DNA of 33,223 bases from NCBI GenBank assembly GCA_902618245.1, contig CACMZR010000006.1, positions 82,501 to 115,723 on the forward strand, given 5' to 3'. Both the position numbers and the translations under genes were made by a program. This document shows positions 22,785-33,223 of the stretch, piece by piece (the first letter of the stretch is position 1; every line of letters begins with the position of its first letter). The DNA comes from an uncultured Bacteroidota bacterium. GTDB lineage: Bacteria; Bacteroidota; Bacteroidia; Flavobacteriales; Flavobacteriaceae. The notes below the pieces were generated by a model. That model made no database searches and was not told where the DNA came from. It worked only from the letters and a program-made list of their open reading frames with translations.

Positions 22785-25700
22785 TCAATCATTCATTATT
22801 ATTTGGGGTAACGAAGAATGAGAAGAACTTATTTGGTTTATACTTACTTTAAAATCCTCCATTTTTCTCAAGTGAACATCGAGCTCTTGCTTTAAACTTT
22901 TTATTCTTTCTTGCTGAGGAATTGTTGGTGGATTGGTTGTATTATCGATTGCTCGCATCAATGTTTTTATTTCCTCTTTCAGTCTTGGTTTTTGCCTGTA
23001 ACTCATTGAGGGAGGGGGCCTCATTAAATGATCATCCTTAAAGATTTTAATTTTATTGTGTAATCTTTCTAACTTTGGAAGGTCTTTACTAGACACAACC
23101 TTAAGTTTTATAGCTAAAGCCTCAATCTGTTCCTCTATAAACAGAATATTTTCTATTAATTTATGAGTATGATTTTGTAAGTCTCGTAAGCTAACTAAAG
23201 CTTCAGATTTTAGTTTATAATTCTCCACAGGCATTTCTATCCTATAATCACCACTTACTAAAAACTCAGAGACTTCAGTTGTGTTATTATATTTAATTTC
23301 AGCTTTATAAATTCCAGGAGCAACTTTTGGTCTAATTTCTTCACTTAAACCTTCATATGTTTTTCCAGGCTTAGTTTTTTTAATTTCCAACTTGCCTTGC
23401 TCATTTACATTTAATGGATTTACTGAATCATAACCAAGGTCCCATGTTAATCTATTAATTCCTTTATCTGGATTTTCATCTTCAAGAGTTGTAACCAAAT
23501 TATTTTGTTTATCAAAAATTTTTACCTCTATGGAACTTTTAGGTTTATGATTTAAATAATAATTTATGTAAGTGCCGTATTCTGGATTTTTCGCAGCATA
23601 CTTTTTATCTCCTAAATTTTCTAAACGCCAATACATATTCCATAAAACACCTTCTCTTATTGGGAAAAGATGAATAGGTTTATCCATTATTCCATCTAAC
23701 TCCTCTAAAGGTCTAATATCATCTAAAATGTAGGCTCCTCTTCCATGGGTACCAATAACTAGATCACGATCTCTTTTCTGAATCCTTAAGTCTCTCACTG
23801 AGACATTAGGAAGGTCAATGTTGATTTTTTCCCAATTTTTTCCACTATCCCAACTTGCATATATGCCGTGTTCCATTCCAGCAAATAATAATTTAGGATT
23901 ATGAGGATCTTGTCGAACTACCTTAACGTAATCATCTTGAGGAAGATTACCCGAAATTTTTTCCCAGGTTTTTCCAAAATTTTTGGTCATAAAAATGTAA
24001 GGTTTAAAATCATCCATACGATGTTGATCAACAGTGACAAATGCGGTTCCAGCATTGTGTTCTGAAGCATGTATTTTTGAAACCCATGAAAATTCTGGTA
24101 GACCTTTAATTCTGTTGTTTAAATTTTTCCAACTTGCTCCACCGTCCATAGTGAGTTGAACATTTCCGTCATCAGTACCAGCCCAGATGACTCCTTTTTG
24201 AATAGGCGATTCGGCTATATAGAGAACCGTACAATGGAATTCAGCTGCAGTATTGTCTTGATAAATAGTCCCTCCTGAAGATATTTGCTTTGACTTATCG
24301 TTAGTAGTTAAGTCTGGACTAATTACTTCCCAACTATTACCACGGTCTTGCGATTTAAATATTACATTTCCTCCAACATAAACAGTCTCTGGGTCATGAG
24401 GTGAAATATGAATTGGAGAATCCCAATTAAATCTGTATTTGTGTTTATCAATTGCATCTCCAGCGGAGCCTACAATTTTTGGATAAGGGTGAATAGTTCT
24501 AACATTACCGTATCTGCTGTCAACAAGAAAGGGAACACCCCCCTGTAGATTTGTATAAACTAAATGTTCATTACCCGGAATAGGTTCTGCAAAGTAACCG
24601 TCACCATAGGCGAGTCCCCTCCAATGGCGTTTTAAAATCCCTGCATTATACAGGGAGTTACTAGGTCCTACCCAAGTACCATTATCCTGAAGACCTCCAT
24701 AAACATTATAGGGTCTAAGGTTGTCAACTTGAATTTGATAAAATTGTGAGAGTTCAATATTATTTATTATTTCCCAGCTATCACCACCATCAAAGGATCT
24801 TTGAAAACCACCATCACTACCATTTAAAATGTATTTGGGATTTTTAGGATCTATCCAAAGTGATTGATGGTCACCATGAACAGATGTAGCGATTCGCTCC
24901 CAAGTATTTCCACTATCTTTTGATCGACTCAGCCATCCTGATATGGAGAACAGGATATTGGAATGCTGAGGATCAACTCTCACATCACTATAGTAAAAGG
25001 GTCTAAAATTAATGTTAGGATCGTCATTTACCATTTCCCAGTTTTCACCTTTATCATTTGAGCGAAAAACAGTACCACCTCCCTTAAATTCTGTCATTAG
25101 ATAAATAATATTTGGATCACTTTGTGCAATATAAATCCCTGGTCTTGCCATGTCAGTTTTTGGGAGGCCTTTCATTATTTTTTTCCAAGTGGCACCTCCA
25201 TCTGTAGTTTTATAAACAGCGGTATTTTTTCCACCATCATCAAAACGCCAAGGTCTTCTTCGAAATGTCCACATCCCTGCATACATAACTCTTGGATTTT
25301 TTATTTCCATAGCAATATCAGCACAGCCTGTATTTTCATCTATAAATAAAACTTTATCCCAAGTTTTACCTCCATCAGTAGTTTTAAATACGCCTCTTTC
25401 TTTATTTGGTCCCCATTGTTTTCCGAGTGCACAAACGCAAGCTATATCAGGATTACTTGGATCCACAACAATACGTTTTATTCGCTCTGTTTTTTTTAAA
25501 CCTAGATTTTTCCACGTTTGTCCACCATCAACAGATCTATACACCCCCCACCCATAGCCTACACTATTTCGAGGATCTCCTTCTCCAGTACCTACCCAGA
25601 GCACATTACTATCTGAGGGGGCTATGGTAAGTGCACCTATAGAGTAGGCTCTTTGATTTTCAAAAATAGGTTTGAAATTTACTCCTCCATCAATTGTTTT

Positions 25701-25916
25701 GTGAATGCCTCCATCTGCTCCACTAACATAAAAAGTTGAGGGATCTCCTGGCACTCCATCTATGTCAGTTACCCTTCCTCCCATGTTGGCAGGTCCTATT
25801 GCTCTCCAAGAATATTTTTTAAGGAGTTCAGCTTTTTGAGTATAACCTTCAACTATTATGCTAAAAAAAGCAACGATAGTAAGGATGTATTTCTTGATAA
25901 TATTTAAATTTTCCAT
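22785..25916 (-). CDS. Exported Asp-box (VPS10/BNR-like) beta-propeller protein
   Basis: This 1,043-residue exported protein begins with a signal peptide (about 1-27, ending GYTQ). Residues 30 to about 740 carry at least ten Asp-box repeats of the SxDxGxxW type, e.g. YRSVDGGQTWKNL, FKTTDGGKTWDKV, SRSKDSGNTWERI, FKSQDRGNSWEVI and YASWDSGKNWEKI, as in sortilin/VPS10, sialidase and xyloglucanase propellers. A beta-sandwich-like part and a helical C-terminus (about 930-1030) follow. Similar Bacteroidota proteins are labelled 'glycosyl hydrolase' or 'VPS10 domain protein'; no catalytic residues can be assigned here. There is no lipobox and no recognisable type IX secretion C-terminal domain, so the periplasm is likely. 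ATG 25916 is preferred over the upstream ATG at 26003, which would put 29 residues before the signal peptide. Confidence 0.86.
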   Translation of the reverse strand: MENLNIIKKYILTIVAFFSIIVEGYTQKAELLKKYSWRAIGPANMGGRVTDIDGVPGDPSTFYVSGADGGIHKTIDGGVNFKPIFENQRAYSIGALTIAPSDSNVLWVGTGEGDPRNSVGYGWGVYRSVDGGQTWKNLGLKKTERIKRIVVDPSNPDIACVCALGKQWGPNKERGVFKTTDGGKTWDKVLFIDENTGCADIAMEIKNPRVMYAGMWTFRRRPWRFDDGGKNTAVYKTTDGGATWKKIMKGLPKTDMARPGIYIAQSDPNIIYLMTEFKGGGTVFRSNDKGENWEMVNDDPNINFRPFYYSDVRVDPQHSNILFSISGWLSRSKDSGNTWERIATSVHGDHQSLWIDPKNPKYILNGSDGGFQRSFDGGDSWEIINNIELSQFYQIQVDNLRPYNVYGGLQDNGTWVGPSNSLYNAGILKRHWRGLAYGDGYFAEPIPGNEHLVYTNLQGGVPFLVDSRYGNVRTIHPYPKIVGSAGDAIDKHKYRFNWDSPIHISPHDPETVYVGGNVIFKSQDRGNSWEVISPDLTTNDKSKQISSGGTIYQDNTAAEFHCTVLYIAESPIQKGVIWAGTDDGNVQLTMDGGASWKNLNNRIKGLPEFSWVSKIHASEHNAGTAFVTVDQHRMDDFKPYIFMTKNFGKTWEKISGNLPQDDYVKVVRQDPHNPKLLFAGMEHGIYASWDSGKNWEKINIDLPNVSVRDLRIQKRDRDLVIGTHGRGAYILDDIRPLEELDGIMDKPIHLFPIREGVLWNMYWRLENLGDKKYAAKNPEYGTYINYYLNHKPKSSIEVKIFDKQNNLVTTLEDENPDKGINRLTWDLGYDSVNPLNVNEQGKLEIKKTKPGKTYEGLSEEIRPKVAPGIYKAEIKYNNTTEVSEFLVSGDYRIEMPVENYKLKSEALVSLRDLQNHTHKLIENILFIEEQIEALAIKLKVVSSKDLPKLERLHNKIKIFKDDHLMRPPPSMSYRQKPRLKEEIKTLMRAIDNTTNPPTIPQQERIKSLKQELDVHLRKMEDFKVSINQISSSHSSLPQIIMND

Positions 25917-26064
25917 TGGTCGTATTTGATTATTCAATTTAAAAAAAACTAAGTAAAATTCATATTGGAAATTATTTTGTAAATTTTTACTTTGAGGGAC
26001 CATAATTATATGTATTAGAGGACTTTAGTATTATTTTATGTTTTTTAAGCTATAATTATTAAAA

Positions 26065-26082
26065 TGCAGTGGAAATGCAGTA
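26065..26082 (+). promoter_or_regulatory. Putative operator, copy 1 (two TGCAGT half-sites)
   Basis: TGCAGTGGAAATGCAGTA contains two TGCAGT half-sites 11 bp apart, one helical turn. It lies 57 bp before the first ORF of the TPR-regulator series and about 150 bp before the divergent Asp-box gene. A near copy occurs in inverse orientation at 28119-28136. A direct repeat of this type could bind a LuxR-like regulator. Function is inferred from recurrence and position. Confidence 0.55.
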
Positions 26083-26138
26083 TAAAATGATTAAAATTTA
26101 TATTGGAAGTTCAATATATTAGCATCAAACAAATCAAA

Positions 26139-26273
26139 ATGGATTATAGTTACTTATATCATACCGATATACCAAAAGGGGTAAAGTCAGTTTATATTAA
26201 TGGAAAAAAGATAAGCAGAGAAGAATTTTTAAAAGAAAGGAAAAACTTTTTTTCAAAAAAAAGGTCAATTTGA
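26139..26273 (+). CDS. Hypothetical 44-residue protein
   Basis: A small ORF with an ATG start and TGA stop. It encodes a 44-residue, very basic and soluble peptide with a middle segment VKSVYINGKKISREEFLKE that looks like a short beta hairpin plus helix. No family is recognised. Support comes from its position: it is the first ORF after the operator-like repeat, and its stop overlaps the TTG of the next small ORF (TTGA). It could instead be a leader or chance ORF. Confidence 0.45.
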   Translation: MDYSYLYHTDIPKGVKSVYINGKKISREEFLKERKNFFSKKRSI

Positions 26274-26347
26274 ATTTAAGGACATGGATAGAGGTATTAA
26301 TAATCTTTTTAATAGTCTTAATCATTTTCCTCTACTTAAAAAAATAG
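26270..26347 (+). CDS. Hypothetical 25-residue membrane microprotein
   Basis: A 25-codon ORF from TTG 26270 to TAG 26347. Almost all of it is one transmembrane-type helix (WIEVLIIFLIVLIIFLYL) with basic ends (LNLR and KK). It overlaps the stop of the 44-codon ORF and is 6 bp before the start of the TPR regulator, which itself has a membrane helix. It could be a small regulator of that sensor. Shortness and a TTG start make this call tentative. Confidence 0.4.
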   Translation: MNLRTWIEVLIIFLIVLIIFLYLKK

Positions 26348-26353
26348 CAACCC

Positions 26354-28045
26354 TTGCTTAGAATAATTAATTTATCGCTCATCTTTTTTTATTCTCTTTC
26401 TTGTTTATCTCAACAGGATTTAGAATTAAGAGATTCCATCATAAAGTACCAATTTTCAAATCCCAGCCTCGCAATAGATTTTGGACTCAAATATGTTGAA
26501 TCGGTTCAATCTAAAACACCCGATAGTTTAGTTATTGGAACTCATGCTATGATTGGAGAAATCCTCTCAGATATGGGCCTTTATGCCTCAGCTATAGAAT
26601 ATCTTAATAGGGCTTTGGACCTTTATCAAACCATGCCAGACAAGAACAAGGCAAATCCAGAAATTACCCAACCTCCTTGGATTATATTAAACATTGGGAG
26701 CATTTATTTTAAAAATGGTGATTACAAAAAAGCAGAGGAAAAATTCAATCAGGCAAAAAGTATTTTTTTAAATCTTCCAGATAAGCAAAGTAGAGATTTT
26801 GGTTTGAATACAACAGATTCAAATCTGGGACTTATTGATGAGATTAAAGGGGATTACCAAAGTGCAGAAAAAAAATATTTTAGCGTTTATCAAAGAAGGC
26901 TTAAATCAAAAAAACCTGAAGATATGCTTTATTCAATTTCACAGCTTATAGCTGTCAATTTTTTAAAAGGTGATATAAATTCTGCCGAAAATAAATTTGA
27001 ACAGCTAAAGCAATACTACAGTGAAAATAAAAATAATCAAGAATCAAATTCTTTATTTACTAGAAATTACGGGTATGGTTATTTTGTTAGTGGGGCTTAC
27101 TATCAGTCGAAAAAAAACTATAAAAAAGCAATCGATTTTTTCACTCAATCTGAGAAAATCTTAAGCGGATTTCCTACAGAAGTAAGTGCACTAGGTTCAA
27201 GGTTTGCAGAATGCTATTTAGGACTAGGTGATCTAGTTAGAGCTGAAAAAAAAGCAAAGCAAAATCTTGAAACAAAAAATTTAAGTGACGCTGAAAAACG
27301 ATACAACTATAATGTACTTGAGAAAGTCTATTCAAAAAAGGGGATGAACTCTGAATTACTTAAAGTAAAAGATTCCCTGATTCTTATTTCAGCAGGAGGA
27401 TCAAGTGGAAAGATTTTTAAGTCTTTAAACAATCTTGAAACGCAAATTCAAATTTCTAAATCAGTAAGAGAATTAAATGAGAGTAAAATTAGATACAATA
27501 CATATCTGTACATATTAATAATATGCTCTGTCATTTTGTTTTTCTCACTCATGACAATTCGTGTAAATTACAATTATCAAAAAGAAAAGGGGAGTAGACT
27601 GGAATTGGAAAAGCTTGCAATAAAAAACGAACTTGATAAAAAAAATAGAGAGCTTGTCAGTAAATCAAATTTTATAATACAACGTAACGATTACCTTAAA
27701 AAATTAAAGAAAAAAATTGAAGTTCAAGACAATAAAAAAGAGGTCGCCTCAAAATTGTCAAAGGAATTAAATATGGTCATTTCCTCAGAAAAATCTTATC
27801 AGGATTTCGATAATATGTTTGTAGAAGTTTACCCTGATTTTTACAAATCAATAAACGATATAGCCAAGCTTTCAAAAACAGATTTAAGATTAGCCTCCTA
27901 TATAAAAATGAATCATAGCAATGATGAAATTGCAAAAATTTCAGGAGTATCGATCAGAACAATTGAAAGTCAACGCTATCGATTATCAAAGAAGTTTAAC
28001 CTAGAAAATGGCTACGAGTTAAACAATTTCATACATAACATTTAA
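26354..28045 (+). CDS. Membrane-spanning TPR regulator with C-terminal LuxR-like HTH
   Basis: A 563-residue one-component regulator. It has a signal sequence (about 1-19), a periplasmic tetratricopeptide region (about 40-340, with repeats such as YASAIEYLNRALDLYQ and YKKAEEKFNQAKSIFL), a transmembrane helix (about 385-405), a charged coiled coil (about 410-475) and a cytoplasmic C-terminal helix-turn-helix (about 495-563: LSKTDLRLASYIKMNHSND, then VSIRTIESQRYRLSKKF). This layout is common in Bacteroidota regulators that read an envelope signal and bind DNA directly. The start is TTG at 26354, 6 bp after a small membrane ORF; no ATG precedes the signal sequence. The likely target is the shared operator next to it and the downstream surface-protein genes. 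Confidence 0.85.
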   Translation: MLRIINLSLIFFYSLSCLSQQDLELRDSIIKYQFSNPSLAIDFGLKYVESVQSKTPDSLVIGTHAMIGEILSDMGLYASAIEYLNRALDLYQTMPDKNKANPEITQPPWIILNIGSIYFKNGDYKKAEEKFNQAKSIFLNLPDKQSRDFGLNTTDSNLGLIDEIKGDYQSAEKKYFSVYQRRLKSKKPEDMLYSISQLIAVNFLKGDINSAENKFEQLKQYYSENKNNQESNSLFTRNYGYGYFVSGAYYQSKKNYKKAIDFFTQSEKILSGFPTEVSALGSRFAECYLGLGDLVRAEKKAKQNLETKNLSDAEKRYNYNVLEKVYSKKGMNSELLKVKDSLILISAGGSSGKIFKSLNNLETQIQISKSVRELNESKIRYNTYLYILIICSVILFFSLMTIRVNYNYQKEKGSRLELEKLAIKNELDKKNRELVSKSNFIIQRNDYLKKLKKKIEVQDNKKEVASKLSKELNMVISSEKSYQDFDNMFVEVYPDFYKSINDIAKLSKTDLRLASYIKMNHSNDEIAKISGVSIRTIESQRYRLSKKFNLENGYELNNFIHNI

Positions 28046-28118
28046 ACCTAATTCTAGGATTAGATCTCTTAAATTATTGCTAGACACTGTAATTAATTTT
28101 TATTTTTTGATAAAATAT

Positions 28119-28136
28119 TACTGCATTTTTACTGCA
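28119..28136 (-). promoter_or_regulatory. Putative operator, copy 2 (two TGCAGT half-sites)
   Basis: On the minus strand this reads TGCAGTAAAAATGCAGTA, identical in 16 of 18 positions to the site at 26065-26082, with the same 11-bp half-site spacing. It lies 74 bp after the TPR regulator stop and 84 bp before the HTH protein start, upstream of a possible -7 element TATGTTTA (28175-28182). It is suited to control of the HTH/giant-protein pair. Confidence 0.55.
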
Positions 28137-28219: not shown

Positions 28220-28486
28220 TTGAGTATTCAAACAAGTCAAAATTTTGAATTAGGGTTTGCTCAAACTTATCCAAACTTTACAAAAAATTTAGTTGATACC
28301 TGCGACGAATTATCTTTCCAAGAGATAAAGATATGCATGTGTATAAAGCTTAGTTATTCTAATGTTCAAATAGAAAAGCAGCTAAATATTTCGCCAAGCA
28401 CTCTTTCTAATATGCGCTCTAGCATTAGAAAAAAAATGGGACTCAGTAGAAGCCAAAATTTAACAACTACAATCCTAAAAATATAA
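28220..28486 (+). CDS. Stand-alone LuxR-like helix-turn-helix protein
   Basis: The 88-residue protein consists only of a DNA-binding output domain: a short FELGFAQTYPNFTKNL lead, then LSFQEIKICMCIKLSYSN, the turn VQIEKQLNISPSTLSNMR and IRKKMGL. By eye it aligns along its length with the C-terminal ~80 residues of the TPR regulator just upstream (shared F...F...YP.F.K, LS, IK..SN..I, S..T...R...KK..L), about two dozen identities. It starts with TTG at 28220, with no in-frame ATG nearby. Its TAA stop overlaps the ATG of the giant surface protein (TAATG), so the two are translationally coupled. It may bind the adjacent TGCAGT repeats. Confidence 0.8.
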   Translation: MSIQTSQNFELGFAQTYPNFTKNLVDTCDELSFQEIKICMCIKLSYSNVQIEKQLNISPSTLSNMRSSIRKKMGLSRSQNLTTTILKI

Positions 28487-31400
28487 TGGGAAAGATAGCT
28501 TTAAATTTTACGCTGAATAAAAAACTAGTACTAACATTTTTAGTTTCAGTTTTTAGTTTTCTATTTTCATATTCTCAAGACACTACAAGTCCTACTGTTG
28601 TGATTTCTGATAATGCTTCTGGTGACACTGTTGGAAATAATGAGACTATTAGAATTACGGGAACCTTCAGTGAGAATATGGCTGCAAGCCCTCAGATTAG
28701 TATTGGTAGTTTAATTACAAATGCTAATATGACCCAAGGGGGTAATGCTTCGATTTGGTATTACGACTGGGATGTATCTACTGGAAGCCCAAGTGAAGGC
28801 CCAGTTGTAGCTACAATCACAGGTACAGACCTTGCTGGAAATGGTTTGGGTTCTACAACAGCACTTAATAAGGCGCTTAACCTTAACGGATCTTCTTATA
28901 CAGCAATACAAAATAACGGTAATAATGATTCTTATCCACTTAGAAGAAGGCCCGGTGATGGCGTAACAAATGGTAATCAACCTTGGATGGTTAATGTGAT
29001 TTTTAATACTTCTGAAGAAAAAAACCAAACAGTTTGGGCTCAAAGGGAAACAGGAAGTAATGACAAAATAAAACTTAAAATAAATGGACAGAGATTAATC
29101 TTTAGATATGGAAGGAATAATCATTATAACAATTGGTCTTACCCAGGTTTTATTAATACAAATACTTGGTACTCTTTTACAGTTAAATACAATGGAGGAA
29201 ATGTAACTCTTCCTGCTTCATTTGATATTTACCAAACTGATTTTTCAAGTGGTATTACTTCAAAAATAACAAGTTTAGGGAGCTGGGCAACAATAGGAAA
29301 TCCTAGTAATTCTTTAGAAATACTTGGTAATTTTTATGCAGGGAACGATAATTCTGCTGAGTGGTTTAATGGCTATATAGCATCAGTAGTTGTTACAACC
29401 CTTAAACAAGGAGAGGATCCATCGCTTAATGAAATTTCTATGTTCAGTCAAGATCCATTGGCATGGCTGGCAAACTACAAAGAAGGTCAAACATTCAGAG
29501 CTCCTAATAAGGCAAGTGTTGAGTCAGTGAATTTCCAAAGCTTAAATAATAATAAAACAGGATCACAGCGAAGTGACTTTGCAACCTATTTGTGGTTAAT
29601 GGGTGATGGTAAAGCAGGAAGTGGTAGTAATGGTCTTGGAACAGGGAGCAGTAAGCATGTAAAAAATGAAGTTACCAACTCTAGTGAATCTAATAAAACA
29701 AGATTAAATTTTAATAATGCTCTGGAAGCCACAGGATATGATAATGTAGATGATGTAAACATAACTGTTCCAGCTAGAAGGCAATATTATATTACTGATA
29801 CTATTTCACCGACTGTAACACTTACCGATACAGACGCTGATAATATAATTTATACTAAACTTACACCTTCAAGTTCGGTCACAATTACTGCAAGTTTCTC
29901 AGAAGCAATGACTGCAACACCTGTAATAAATATAAGTGGTATTGTAACCAATGTGGCAATGACCAGAATTAGTGGAACAAATAATTATACCTACAATTGG
30001 AATACTTCAACTCCTACTCTTGCTGCGGGAGTGTATACTGCTACAGTAAGTGGAACAGATCTAGCTGGATTAGCCTATTCTGGTACAGATAGTATAACAT
30101 TTACTATAAGCCCTACTTTTTACCTGGCCTCTAATGGGGTGACTGTAAAGTGTTCTGGTTGTAGTGCCGGGGACCAGGGAGTAGTTGGTGGAGTGACCTA
30201 CACGGCACATGACAACACTTCTATTGCAGCTAAAAACAAAAATGATAATGATTGGAATAGGATAGTAACTACTCTTGTAACAGACATGAGTGATTTATTT
30301 CGTCATCAAAACACTTTTAATCAAGACATAAGTTCTTGGGATACTTCTAATGTTACCAATTTCCATGGAATGTTTGAGATGAATCTTGGAGTTAATAACG
30401 ATAATAGCTTCAACCAGAATATTAGTGCATGGGATACTTCCTCAGCCACTGACATGAGTTATATGTTTTATAATGCTGATGCATTTAACCAAGATATTGG
30501 TTCCTGGAATACATCAAGTGTAACAAATATGGAGAGGATGTTTGCCAGTACAACTAATTTTAATCAAAACATAGGAGCATGGAATTTATCAAGTCTAACT
30601 AATATTTCATACATGTTTAATAGCGCAGGGGCATTTAATAATGGTGGCAGTGGTACCATAAATAACTGGAACACTTCAAGCGTAACTACTATGAGAAATT
30701 TATTTAGTGGCGCTACTGTGTTTAACCAAAATATAGGTTCCTGGAATACATCAAGTGTCACTGATATGAAAGGTGCACTATCAGGCAGGGATTTTAACAA
30801 TGGGGGTAACGGTTCTATTGATAATTGGGATACTTCTTCTGTTACAAATATGGAAAGTATGTTTGGTCAATCATTTAACCAAGATCTAAACTCGTGGGAT
30901 GTTTCAAATGTTACAACCATGGATAGGATGTTTATGAACTCTTATGCATTTAATGGAAATATCTCTAGCTGGGATGTTTCCTCTGTAACCGACATGGAGG
31001 CGATGTTTGACACTGCTAGAGCATTTAACAGAAATATAGGTTCTTGGGATACTTCTAGTGTTACCAATATGAGATCAATGTTTGCAAATGCTTTTGCATT
31101 TAATCAAAATATAGGTGGTTGGGATGTTTCTAATGTAACTGATATGTTAGAAATGTTTAAAGTAGCTAGTGCATTTAACAACGGTGGCAATAGTTCAATT
31201 GGAAATTGGAATGTTTCTAATGTAACTAGGATGTTTAAGATGTTTTCCTCTGCTCAAGCTTTTAATCAAGATCTCTCTGGATGGTGTGTTACAAACATTA
31301 CTTCTTTTAGTGAGACCAATTATTTTAATGAGAATTCTGCTCTAACTGGTGCAAATCTTCCTGTTTGGGGTACCTGCCCGTCAAATGCGACACTTGTAAT

Positions 31401-33223
31401 TACCTCTGATGATTCAGATAATGTTATTACTACCGGTCAGGTAACCCTCACCGCAACCTTCTCAGAAAACATGGCTGCCTCGCCTACTATTTCTATAACA
31501 GGCGTGGTTACCAATGTTTCAATGACACAAAGCACTACTGCAGCAGTATGGACTTACTACTGGCAAGTACCTTCAAATATTTCTTCAGGTACAACACTCA
31601 ATGTTACCGCTACTGCAACCGATACTAATAGCAGATCCTACTCCGGAAATGCTTCCCTTACCCTTACTATAAGCCCTACTTTTTATTTGGCCTCTAATGG
31701 GGTAACTATAAAATGTTCTGGATGTAGCGCAGGAGATACGGGTATGGTAAGCGGGACGCTATATACTGCTGCTGCTAATTCTAATATTTCATCACTGAGA
31801 GCTGCAGGGAACTATAACTTAGCAACTACTCTTGTTACTAGTATGCAAGGTCTTTTTGCCAACAATAATTCTTTTAACACCGATATTGGTTTTTGGGACA
31901 CTTCTAATGTAACAATTATGCGAGAGATGTTTAACGGTGCAACTGCATTCAATCAAAATATTGGAGCCTGGGATACATCAAAAGTTATAAATATGAGTTA
32001 CATGTTCTATGGAGCTACTGCATTTAACAATGGTGGTAGTAATACCATAAATAATTGGGATACATCAAGTGTTACTGATATGAGTAAAATGTTTCAAATT
32101 GCGAGTGGATTCAATCAAAATATTGGATCTTGGGATACGTCAAAAGTAACAGATATGAATTATATGTTTGGCGCAGCTGATGCATTTAACAATGGTGGTA
32201 GTAATACCATAAATAATTGGGATACATCAGAAGTAACAAATATGTCTGCTATGTTTTATAATAATGACGTATTCAATCAAAATATTGGATCCTGGGATAC
32301 GTCAAAAGTAACAGATATGAATTATATGTTTGGTAATACGGGTGCATTCAATCAAAATATTGGGTCCTGGGATACATCAAATGTAATAAACATGTCAAAT
32401 ATGTTTTGGAGAGCAATTGCATTCAATCAAAATATAGGAGCATGGAATACATCAAAAGTTAGAAATATGAGAAGCATGTTTGAAGGTCAAGGTATAGGCA
32501 TCTACACCGTGTTTAATAACGGTGGAAGTAGCACAATAAATAATTGGGATACTTCTAGTGTTACCAATATGAGATCAATGTTCTATGCTTCTAATTTCAA
32601 TCAAAATATTGGTAGTTGGGACACCTCTAGTATTTCTGGTAGTGGTAATATGGCGAGTATGTTTGCTAATTCAACTAATTTCAATCAAGATCTCTCCGGA
32701 TGGTGTGTCTCACAATTTAGTAGTGAACCTTCTCTCTTTAAATTTAATGCTAATGCTACTTGGAGAAATGATGCTTCCAAACAACCAGAGTGGGGAGTAT
32801 GTAATTCCAATGTATCGGTAATTTTATCTGATACCGATGCGGATAATTTAATAACAGCATCAGATACGGTAACTATAACAGCTTTCTTTACCGAGGCAAT
32901 GACAGCTACTCCAAGGATTAGTATTTCAGGACTAGTGACTAATGTTGCAATGACTAAAATTTCCATAGGAGGAAATAGTTCGGTTGTGACTCAGGTAGGA
33001 GCAGATTTTGATGGACAAAGACTAAATGATGATACTGGTCGTTCAGTTTCTTTATCTTCTGATGGCTTAACGGTAGCTATAGGATCACCAGAATGGGAAA
33101 ACACAGGAATTATTCCTCTTCCATATAGTCAGGGTAGGGTAGCTATTTATAGATGGAACGGATCTGCTTGGACTCAATTAGGGTCTAATATCACGGGTGA
33201 AGCAAGAGATAATTATAGCGGTT
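28486..33223 (+). CDS. Giant secreted BspA-repeat surface protein, partial
   Basis: The frame is open from the ATG at 28486 to the right edge (1,579 codons) without a stop. The signal peptide is about residues 1-31 (ending FSYSQ). Modules in order: Ig-like domain (about 35-120, TFSENMAASPQISIG), LamG/concanavalin-like domain (about 126-310), linker with DPLAWLANYKEGQTF, Ig-like (about 440-540), a FYLASNGVTVKCSGCSAGD motif (from 543), 13 BspA/DUF285 repeats (604-943), Ig-like (966-1063), a second FYLASNGVTIKCSGCSAGD motif, 11 BspA repeats (1123-1411), Ig-like (1445-1500) and the start of a propeller-like domain (from about 1502, DDTGRSVSLSSDGLTVAIGS). It is likely an adhesin or surface-exposed protein; the C-terminus, where a type IX sorting domain might sit, is outside the window. 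It appears richer in G+C than the flanking genes, and it is coupled to the HTH gene upstream. Confidence 0.92.
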   Translation, partial: MGKIALNFTLNKKLVLTFLVSVFSFLFSYSQDTTSPTVVISDNASGDTVGNNETIRITGTFSENMAASPQISIGSLITNANMTQGGNASIWYYDWDVSTGSPSEGPVVATITGTDLAGNGLGSTTALNKALNLNGSSYTAIQNNGNNDSYPLRRRPGDGVTNGNQPWMVNVIFNTSEEKNQTVWAQRETGSNDKIKLKINGQRLIFRYGRNNHYNNWSYPGFINTNTWYSFTVKYNGGNVTLPASFDIYQTDFSSGITSKITSLGSWATIGNPSNSLEILGNFYAGNDNSAEWFNGYIASVVVTTLKQGEDPSLNEISMFSQDPLAWLANYKEGQTFRAPNKASVESVNFQSLNNNKTGSQRSDFATYLWLMGDGKAGSGSNGLGTGSSKHVKNEVTNSSESNKTRLNFNNALEATGYDNVDDVNITVPARRQYYITDTISPTVTLTDTDADNIIYTKLTPSSSVTITASFSEAMTATPVINISGIVTNVAMTRISGTNNYTYNWNTSTPTLAAGVYTATVSGTDLAGLAYSGTDSITFTISPTFYLASNGVTVKCSGCSAGDQGVVGGVTYTAHDNTSIAAKNKNDNDWNRIVTTLVTDMSDLFRHQNTFNQDISSWDTSNVTNFHGMFEMNLGVNNDNSFNQNISAWDTSSATDMSYMFYNADAFNQDIGSWNTSSVTNMERMFASTTNFNQNIGAWNLSSLTNISYMFNSAGAFNNGGSGTINNWNTSSVTTMRNLFSGATVFNQNIGSWNTSSVTDMKGALSGRDFNNGGNGSIDNWDTSSVTNMESMFGQSFNQDLNSWDVSNVTTMDRMFMNSYAFNGNISSWDVSSVTDMEAMFDTARAFNRNIGSWDTSSVTNMRSMFANAFAFNQNIGGWDVSNVTDMLEMFKVASAFNNGGNSSIGNWNVSNVTRMFKMFSSAQAFNQDLSGWCVTNITSFSETNYFNENSALTGANLPVWGTCPSNATLVITSDDSDNVITTGQVTLTATFSENMAASPTISITGVVTNVSMTQSTTAAVWTYYWQVPSNISSGTTLNVTATATDTNSRSYSGNASLTLTISPTFYLASNGVTIKCSGCSAGDTGMVSGTLYTAAANSNISSLRAAGNYNLATTLVTSMQGLFANNNSFNTDIGFWDTSNVTIMREMFNGATAFNQNIGAWDTSKVINMSYMFYGATAFNNGGSNTINNWDTSSVTDMSKMFQIASGFNQNIGSWDTSKVTDMNYMFGAADAFNNGGSNTINNWDTSEVTNMSAMFYNNDVFNQNIGSWDTSKVTDMNYMFGNTGAFNQNIGSWDTSNVINMSNMFWRAIAFNQNIGAWNTSKVRNMRSMFEGQGIGIYTVFNNGGSSTINNWDTSSVTNMRSMFYASNFNQNIGSWDTSSISGSGNMASMFANSTNFNQDLSGWCVSQFSSEPSLFKFNANATWRNDASKQPEWGVCNSNVSVILSDTDADNLITASDTVTITAFFTEAMTATPRISISGLVTNVAMTKISIGGNSSVVTQVGADFDGQRLNDDTGRSVSLSSDGLTVAIGSPEWENTGIIPLPYSQGRVAIYRWNGSAWTQLGSNITGEARDNYSG
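30295..31314 (+). repeat. BspA/DUF285 repeat block 1 (13 copies)
   Basis: Thirteen units of about 23-31 residues with consensus MFxxAxAFNQNIGSWDTSSV-TNM. Three units carry an FNNGG...NW variant with extra residues. The final unit changes to FNQDLSGWCV and is followed by PVWGTCP, a capping pattern. The block is preceded by the CSGCSAGD motif. It folds as a leucine-rich-repeat-like solenoid in the family. Confidence 0.9.
31852..32718 (+). repeat. BspA/DUF285 repeat block 2 (11 copies)
   Basis: Eleven units with the same consensus as block 1, again ending in FNQDLSGWCV and followed by PEWGVC. Units here often carry DTSKVTDMNY instead of DTSSVTNM. The same lead-in and the same cap as block 1 indicate duplication of a whole Ig-like plus BspA module. 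Confidence 0.9.
32019..32333 (+). repeat. 162-bp tandem duplication inside block 2
   Basis: Bases 32019-32067 are identical to 32181-32229 (49 bp), and 32131-32171 are identical to 32293-32333 (41 bp), all offset by 162 bp (54 codons, two BspA units). The roughly 42 bp between them (32068-32109 against 32230-32271) have diverged strongly, giving a mosaic. Confidence 0.85.

Follow-up and report, generated by a model that had tools for sequence, protein, structure and literature searches.

The two copies of an 18-bp sequence that flank a TPR-HTH regulator gene in an uncultured member of the Flavobacteriaceae are, with a probability that we put at roughly 0.78, tandem-heptamer operators of the membrane TPR-HTH regulator encoded between them, through which this protein would activate its own operon and control surface-protein genes. 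The exclusivity of the sites, their conservation, their 11-bp periodicity, the spacing to a -7-like box at sites oriented with their gene (same-orientation sites) and the covariation of a regulator residue with an operator base were all computed. The stretch of DNA analysed, hereafter the window, is 33,223 nucleotides long and belongs to a genome (G000) of 1,834,762 bases in 32 contigs that is 85.8% complete. Its relevant features are:

26065 to 26082, plus strand: operator 1, TGCAGTGGAAATGCAGTA, oriented with the regulator operon; relatives have an equivalent site at the same place
26115 to 26122, plus strand: candidate -7 box, TATATTAG, 32 nt after operator 1, with no TTTG at the expected -33 place
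26139 to 26273, plus strand: micro-ORF MP1, 44 aa, a strict pattern finds its peptide in at least 15 of 41 loci
26270 to 26347, plus strand: micro-ORF MP2, 25 aa with one hydrophobic segment, its TTG start overlapping the MP1 stop; found with a strict pattern in at least 18 of 41 loci
26354 to 28045, plus strand: TPR-HTH regulator, 563 aa, with predicted TPR helices at residues 2-347, a long helix at 350-458 that has a hydrophobic segment near 381-404, and the HTH at 462-562
27953 to 27994, plus strand: recognition helix of the regulator, residues 534-547, with the Ser539 codon at 27968-27970; it covaries with the operator
28119 to 28136, minus strand: operator 2, TGCAGTAAAAATGCAGTA, oriented against the next gene
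28220 to 28486, plus strand: small HTH protein, 88 aa, with a GerE domain, starting 83 bp after operator 2
28486 to 33222, plus strand: giant DUF285/PARCEL-repeat protein, cut by the contig end

Operators 1 and 2 are identical at 16 of 18 positions, the difference being GG versus AA at positions 7-8, and the TGCAGT half-sites are 11 bp apart in both. A check against the window sequence confirmed the coordinates, strands, degree of match and half-site distance given for the two copies by an earlier, sequence-only reading of this DNA, and its placement of one upstream of the regulator and the other upstream of an HTH/giant-protein pair was borne out. Its remark that the window holds no other copy is right for the exact pattern; at up to three mismatches there is one further match, TGAAGTTCCAATGCAGTC at 545-562, where 0.47 matches are expected by chance in the window. 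MP1 and MP2 are unannotated. They lie between operator 1 and the regulator and their peptides recur in relatives, from which operator 1 seems to serve a three-gene MP1-MP2-regulator operon, and the two microproteins may be part of a sensing complex. A sortilin/BNR-repeat gene (22785-26003, minus strand) also adjoins operator 1; it is present at this place in G000 and G154 and absent from it in the near relatives G176 and G183. Operator 1 was rejected as a site serving this divergent gene because G176 and G183 keep the site without it.

The repeated unit is TGCAGTA-N4-TGCAGTA, two heptamers at an 11-bp period. A direct repeat with this period had been recognized from the window alone and stands, but as a fixed 18-bp motif it was drawn too narrowly and was abandoned, since the 4-bp spacer is free and its letters vary among sites. 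When the 37.4 kb flanking 46 regulators were scanned with the pattern TG.AGTA N4 TG.AGTA (third base free, at most one mismatch), 56 sites were found at period 11 and from 0 to 6 at the other periods between 7 and 21; 20 rounds of dinucleotide shuffles gave a mean of 0.15 sites and a maximum of 1. The 46 regulators have distinct C-termini, but four of them belong to the species cluster of the window itself. A pair of sites 33 to 83 bp apart is seen in some promoters (L147, L253, L254, L261, L318/L322, L134), as if two regulator dimers cooperate.

For the promoter counts six near-identical loci (L223, L224, L225, L230, L255 and L261) were dropped, leaving 25 of 30 same-orientation sites and 31 of 37 sites oriented against their gene. 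A -7-like box, TAnnTT[TA][GAT], starts 30-32 nt after the site at 18 of the 25 same-orientation sites (19 boxes), versus on average 4.7 and at most 8 boxes in the best window of shuffled sequences, and the same spacing is seen at 15 of 17 same-orientation sites upstream of a regulator. The strict box TAnnTTTG accompanies 8 of the 25, six of these at 31-32 nt. If the -7 box is taken at -12 to -5, where it is mapped in F. psychrophilum (PMC9723704), same-orientation sites would span about -62 to -45, an activator position upstream of the promoter core. Strict promoters of the form TTTG-N17-21-TAnnTTTG occur at 1 of the 31 opposite-orientation sites and at none of the 25 same-orientation ones, an absence that is as expected of an activator-dependent promoter. 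Sites oriented against their gene, operator 2 included, have no fixed -7 spacing (best 7 boxes versus a shuffled mean of 5.0 and maximum of 8).

The lack of a fixed promoter distance at sites of the operator 2 type could suit a regulator that binds and represses, with negative autoregulation and derepression of the surface-protein genes, and negative autoregulation is common in general. Repression is nevertheless unlikely: same-orientation operators end upstream of the promoter core, at the constant distance from the -7-like box given above, and the missing strict -33/-7 promoters fit activation. We accordingly keep activation as the preferred mode of control at same-orientation sites. The earlier proposal of a shared operator in an autoregulated circuit is supported, autoregulation being suggested by the position of the operator.

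The regulator was modelled with AlphaFold (23 sequences; pLDDT 85.0, pTM 0.62). In the model, residues 350-458 form a single helix of 109 residues which carries the hydrophobic segment, and among the solved structures listed by Foldseek the best matches are TPR proteins and complexes, including LGN, MalT domain III and Rap. The N-terminus is signal-like and one hydrophobic stretch lies within the long helix, for which the predicted topology has the TPR part probably on the extracytoplasmic side. Ahead of the HTH there are TPR repeats alone by Pfam and TPR helices in the model; the receiver domain of response regulators is absent. The HTH itself is not listed by Pfam at E 0.001; in a profile comparison with solved structures it matches EsrB (E 2.4e-4) and EvgA (E 3.1e-4). 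The window's small HTH protein scores 26.9 bits with the GerE profile, above the cut-off of 23.5, and its C15 paralogue is just below at 21.3. In the alignments Ser539 lies inside the recognition helix, opposite a Thr of EsrB; the equivalent residue of NarL is one which we take to contact bases.

Regulators were found in 14 of 397 genomes of the family and 10 of 237 genera, and further loci were added from another search. Removal of identical C-termini, with the further demand that a frame exceed 150 residues and show a recognisable helix pattern, reduced 67 regulator frames to 46. The residue equivalent to 539 of the window's regulator is Ser in 33 of these, Thr in 12 and Gly in one, and sites stand beside 28 of the Ser-type, 9 of the Thr-type and none of the Gly-type regulators. 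The third base of the half-sites follows this residue: beside Ser-type regulators it is C in 78 cases, A in 8 and T in none, beside Thr-type regulators C in none, A in 7 and T in 19. Ser-type regulators thus go with TGCAGTA and Thr-type ones with TGTAGTA, with no exception among the 37 regulators that have sites. The T form was first met as two-mismatch matches in a scan for TGCAGT, and the pattern with a free third base was written afterwards. In the stretches scanned no site was found beside 5 of the 33 Ser-type, 3 of the 12 Thr-type and the one Gly-type regulator, among them L247, where the scan covered only 47 bp downstream, and L228, with a two-mismatch copy.

A tree of 42 regulators (four fragments of the 46 were left out), for which the trait residues had been masked, has two switches of the residue and two of the base, and both independent pairs agree. 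A single clade of Thr-type regulators was rejected (p-AU 1.4e-72, for a group named after the tree was seen and with long branches present). A sign test on the covariation gives p 0.5 and cannot reach significance, because the tree has only two independent switches. Both types of regulator occur together in G179 and G180. The regulator copies of G179 at L134 and L137 are broken, one being split into two frames and the other having internal stops, and sites adjoin both. From these sequence comparisons the sites are likely bound by the TPR-HTH protein with its transmembrane segment. The sequence-only reading had linked two HTH proteins of the same family in one circuit; the sites do track the TPR-HTH regulator, and the two proteins are probably not equal partners, as G162 has a regulator and a site with no small HTH found.

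TGCAGTN5TGCAGT occurs at three places in G000 and the reversed pattern at none in a whole-genome search. The third place, G000:C15:6458-6474, is 82 bp before a gene for an 88-aa HTH protein which overlaps the gene of a giant DUF285 protein (at least 2,039 aa); this locus is a second copy of the window's small-HTH/giant module. The possibility that the motif is frequent at random sites was not borne out, because the three matches in 1.83 Mb all stand at the regulator or at such modules. A one-mismatch site at G000:C12, between convergent genes, looks like chance and was discarded as an operator. When orthologous loci were compared, the site recurred where the regulators are 52-61% identical, although the letters of the spacer differ.

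Within the genus the exact site is present in 17 of 38 genomes, with 39 sites in total and none of the reversed pattern. The small HTH protein used as a query, which also catches the regulator's own HTH, matches 18 of the 38. Site and HTH homologue are both present in 16 genomes, the site only in one, the homologue only in two and neither in 19 (Fisher p 1.5e-7, a statistic that ignores relatedness); in other words, 16 of the 17 site-bearing genomes encode a homologue, and 19 of the 20 without one are also without a site. The genome with a site only, G166, is 56% complete and no regulator was found in it. Those with a homologue only, G156 and G167, each have a one-mismatch CGCAGT copy before a regulator or regulator fragment. 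The whole regulator as query also matches 18 of 38 genomes but a different set, which gains G158 (a partial match of 35% identity, no site) and loses G182. The union of both queries, with G158 included, changes the table to 16, 1, 3 and 18 (p 1.3e-6, relatedness again ignored).

By sequence the presumed targets are mostly surface proteins and lipoproteins. In the stretches listed, none of the 39 genus sites falls within a reading frame longer than 112 aa. Nine precede the regulator operon and 17 a small HTH gene. Five are just after a regulator without a visible small HTH gene, four of these near contig ends (G151, G179) and one in G162, where a SusC/SusD pair is next. Four precede members of one lipoprotein family of about 160 aa (in G166, G171, G172 and G176), and a one-mismatch copy does so in G154. 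For this family (L150, L152, L153, L176) the one member scanned has no Pfam or NCBIfam match. A homologue in G182 (63% identical) has no site at up to one mismatch, nor have six more distant homologues (39-46% identity) in five genomes including the regulator-less G152. Of the remaining four sites one is in G184, one precedes an Ig_7-domain protein of 1,036+ aa in G180, and two are in G171, where one precedes a secreted protein of 243 aa and the other is at the end of a contig. The site in G184 is exact and lies between gldK and gldL (L175 5503-5519), which belong to the type IX secretion/gliding machinery. G156 encodes a homologue of the 243-aa protein (48% identity), and a one-mismatch site stands 58 bp before it. 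The giant protein of the window consists largely of DUF285/PARCEL repeats, which are best known from families of Mycoplasma and Listeria.

The number of sites before small HTH genes raises the question whether the 88-aa protein, and not the TPR-HTH regulator, binds them as an autoregulated switch before each giant gene. In favour of this reading, G174, G177 and G182 (80, 68 and 79% complete) have a small HTH and a site with no full regulator found. We regard it as improbable. The recognition helix of the small HTH protein varies between species and the adjoining sites are constant, because of which it is the less likely main binder; the third base of the site tracks the regulator residue across genera; and the converse case, a regulator and site with no small HTH found, exists in G162. 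The TPR-HTH regulator is therefore retained as the likely binder.

The copies stand inverted around the regulator, and invertible promoters occur in Bacteroidota, so that recombination between them might flip the regulator gene as a means of phase variation. This is most improbable, since in every one of the six species examined (G000, G151, G171, G172, G175, G184) the two copies have unlike spacers, single sites are found elsewhere, and in the assemblies the regulator and small HTH genes are co-directional in all 11 genomes where a single contig carries the two, with the regulator first in 10; the other, G167, has an upstream small HTH gene with an in-frame stop.

Across 149 genomes of the family there are 22 sites versus about 18 of the reversed pattern, which shows no general enrichment in the family, as a chance resemblance of two AT-rich intergenic sequences would have it; chance is already refuted, however, by the genus counts and by the shuffles of the sequences beside regulators. 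One of the 22, an exact site in G099, proved in a blind check to be 185 bp before a regulator gene. In 12 chosen regulator-bearing genomes the refined pattern TGCAGTRNNNWTGCAGTA gives, at one mismatch, 45 sites versus 2 reversed. Seven copies of TGCAGTGTTGTTGCAGT in G117, a genome of the family (L022, L026-L031), are probably a dispersed repeat.

A second clade of six genomes, Arcticimaribacter and relatives, has 28 places that match TGCAGTANNNNTGMAGTA at up to one mismatch versus 3 reversed. Several one-mismatch places inside genes were not accepted as operators and are probably due to chance. In all six genomes a surface protein of one and the same kind is preceded by a site, or by two in the case of G542. 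Over the parts read, identity to the first of these proteins is 69-94%, and DUF7507 and DUF11 were found in the four of six that were scanned; in G099 the protein is open only as a 161-aa frame in the part read, and in G336, where the longest frame begins at the site, a later start was assumed. In G544 another site, adjoining a regulator, precedes a DUF285/laminin-G protein. On sequence grounds large surface proteins are again the theme in this clade, though the proteins differ.

We propose that the regulator is a one-component membrane protein, predicted to have its TPR sensor outside and its NarL-type HTH inside the cytoplasm, with a membrane helix between them that continues as a coiled coil. 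A pair of HTH domains would lie one helical turn apart on the same face of the DNA, immediately before a weak flavobacterial promoter, where the bound regulator would recruit RNA polymerase. At operator 1 it would activate its own operon, and at operator 2 and sites elsewhere it would control giant surface proteins, lipoproteins and other exported proteins. The signal, at a guess, would be either a peptide or the condition of the cell's surface. Binding, activation rather than repression, and membrane topology are each what we infer. More tentatively, Ser or Thr at 539 may set C or T in both heptamers as a DNA code by which paralogues within one cell run separate surface-protein regulons in marine Flavobacteriaceae, with the microproteins, one of them having a membrane helix, in the sensing complex and the expression of giant surface proteins coupled to the surface state or to type IX export; this extension is possible and distinctly less secure than the proposal itself.

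If the proposal is true, the operator, its candidate regulator and the recurring targets make the control of surface proteins predictable from sequence, and a class of membrane TPR-HTH proteins for which our literature searches found no DNA site would have one. For uncultured marine flavobacteria with small genomes, our literature search indicates that little is printed on the control of the giant surface proteins that meet particles and polymers. No such operator or regulator was found in the literature searched, in keeping with the earlier suggestion of a new operator motif for this class of regulators, and the searches returned nothing on point for DUF6377, for the NarL contact residues or for the heptamer. 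The combination of parts, the operator sequence and the rule that pairs Ser/Thr with C/T were likewise not found there.

With NarL/FixJ-type (LuxR-type, GerE) response regulators such as EsrB, EvgA, SsrB and VraR the regulator has its type of HTH in common; those proteins have a receiver domain, in place of which it has a TPR domain and a hydrophobic helix. The SARP regulators, whose DNA-binding fold is other than the NarL-type HTH, have operators of the same heptamer-repeat geometry with 11-bp units, a likeness that we regard as convergent in geometry only, claiming no relationship between the proteins. The Streptomyces SARP PimR has heptameric direct repeats with 4-nt spacers, giving 11-bp units, at an activated promoter (PMC5930380); its heptamer CGGCAAG and its phylum differ from those here. 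MalT joins a TPR-type sensor to a LuxR-type HTH, as the regulator does, and its domain III (1hz4) ranks 18 among the Foldseek matches listed. MalT is a STAND ATPase (PMC4381067); no nucleotide-binding ATPase domain of that kind is matched by Pfam in the regulator, whose TPR part starts near the N-terminus, and the hydrophobic helix between sensor and HTH is a further difference. In Bacteroidota, the BT_3442 family and the DUF6377 proteins likewise combine TPRs with an HTH region at the C-terminus, and BT_3442 is the first gene of a surface-lipoprotein cluster (PMC2954219). With DUF6377 (PF19904) the regulator scores 22.7 bits, far below the cut-off of 36.7, and G000 has no match at E 1e-20; in the BT3442 family (NF053779, cut-off 940 bits) the regulator is not listed and the small HTH protein scores 28.9 bits. 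The idea that DUF6377 proteins share the operator was dropped: the 10 usable of 12 loci, two being excluded for a wrongly chosen frame, were without a site and their recognition helix is different. NarL-type HTHs, TPR sensors, operators of tandem heptamers and a TPR protein at the head of a surface-lipoprotein cluster are each already known singly.
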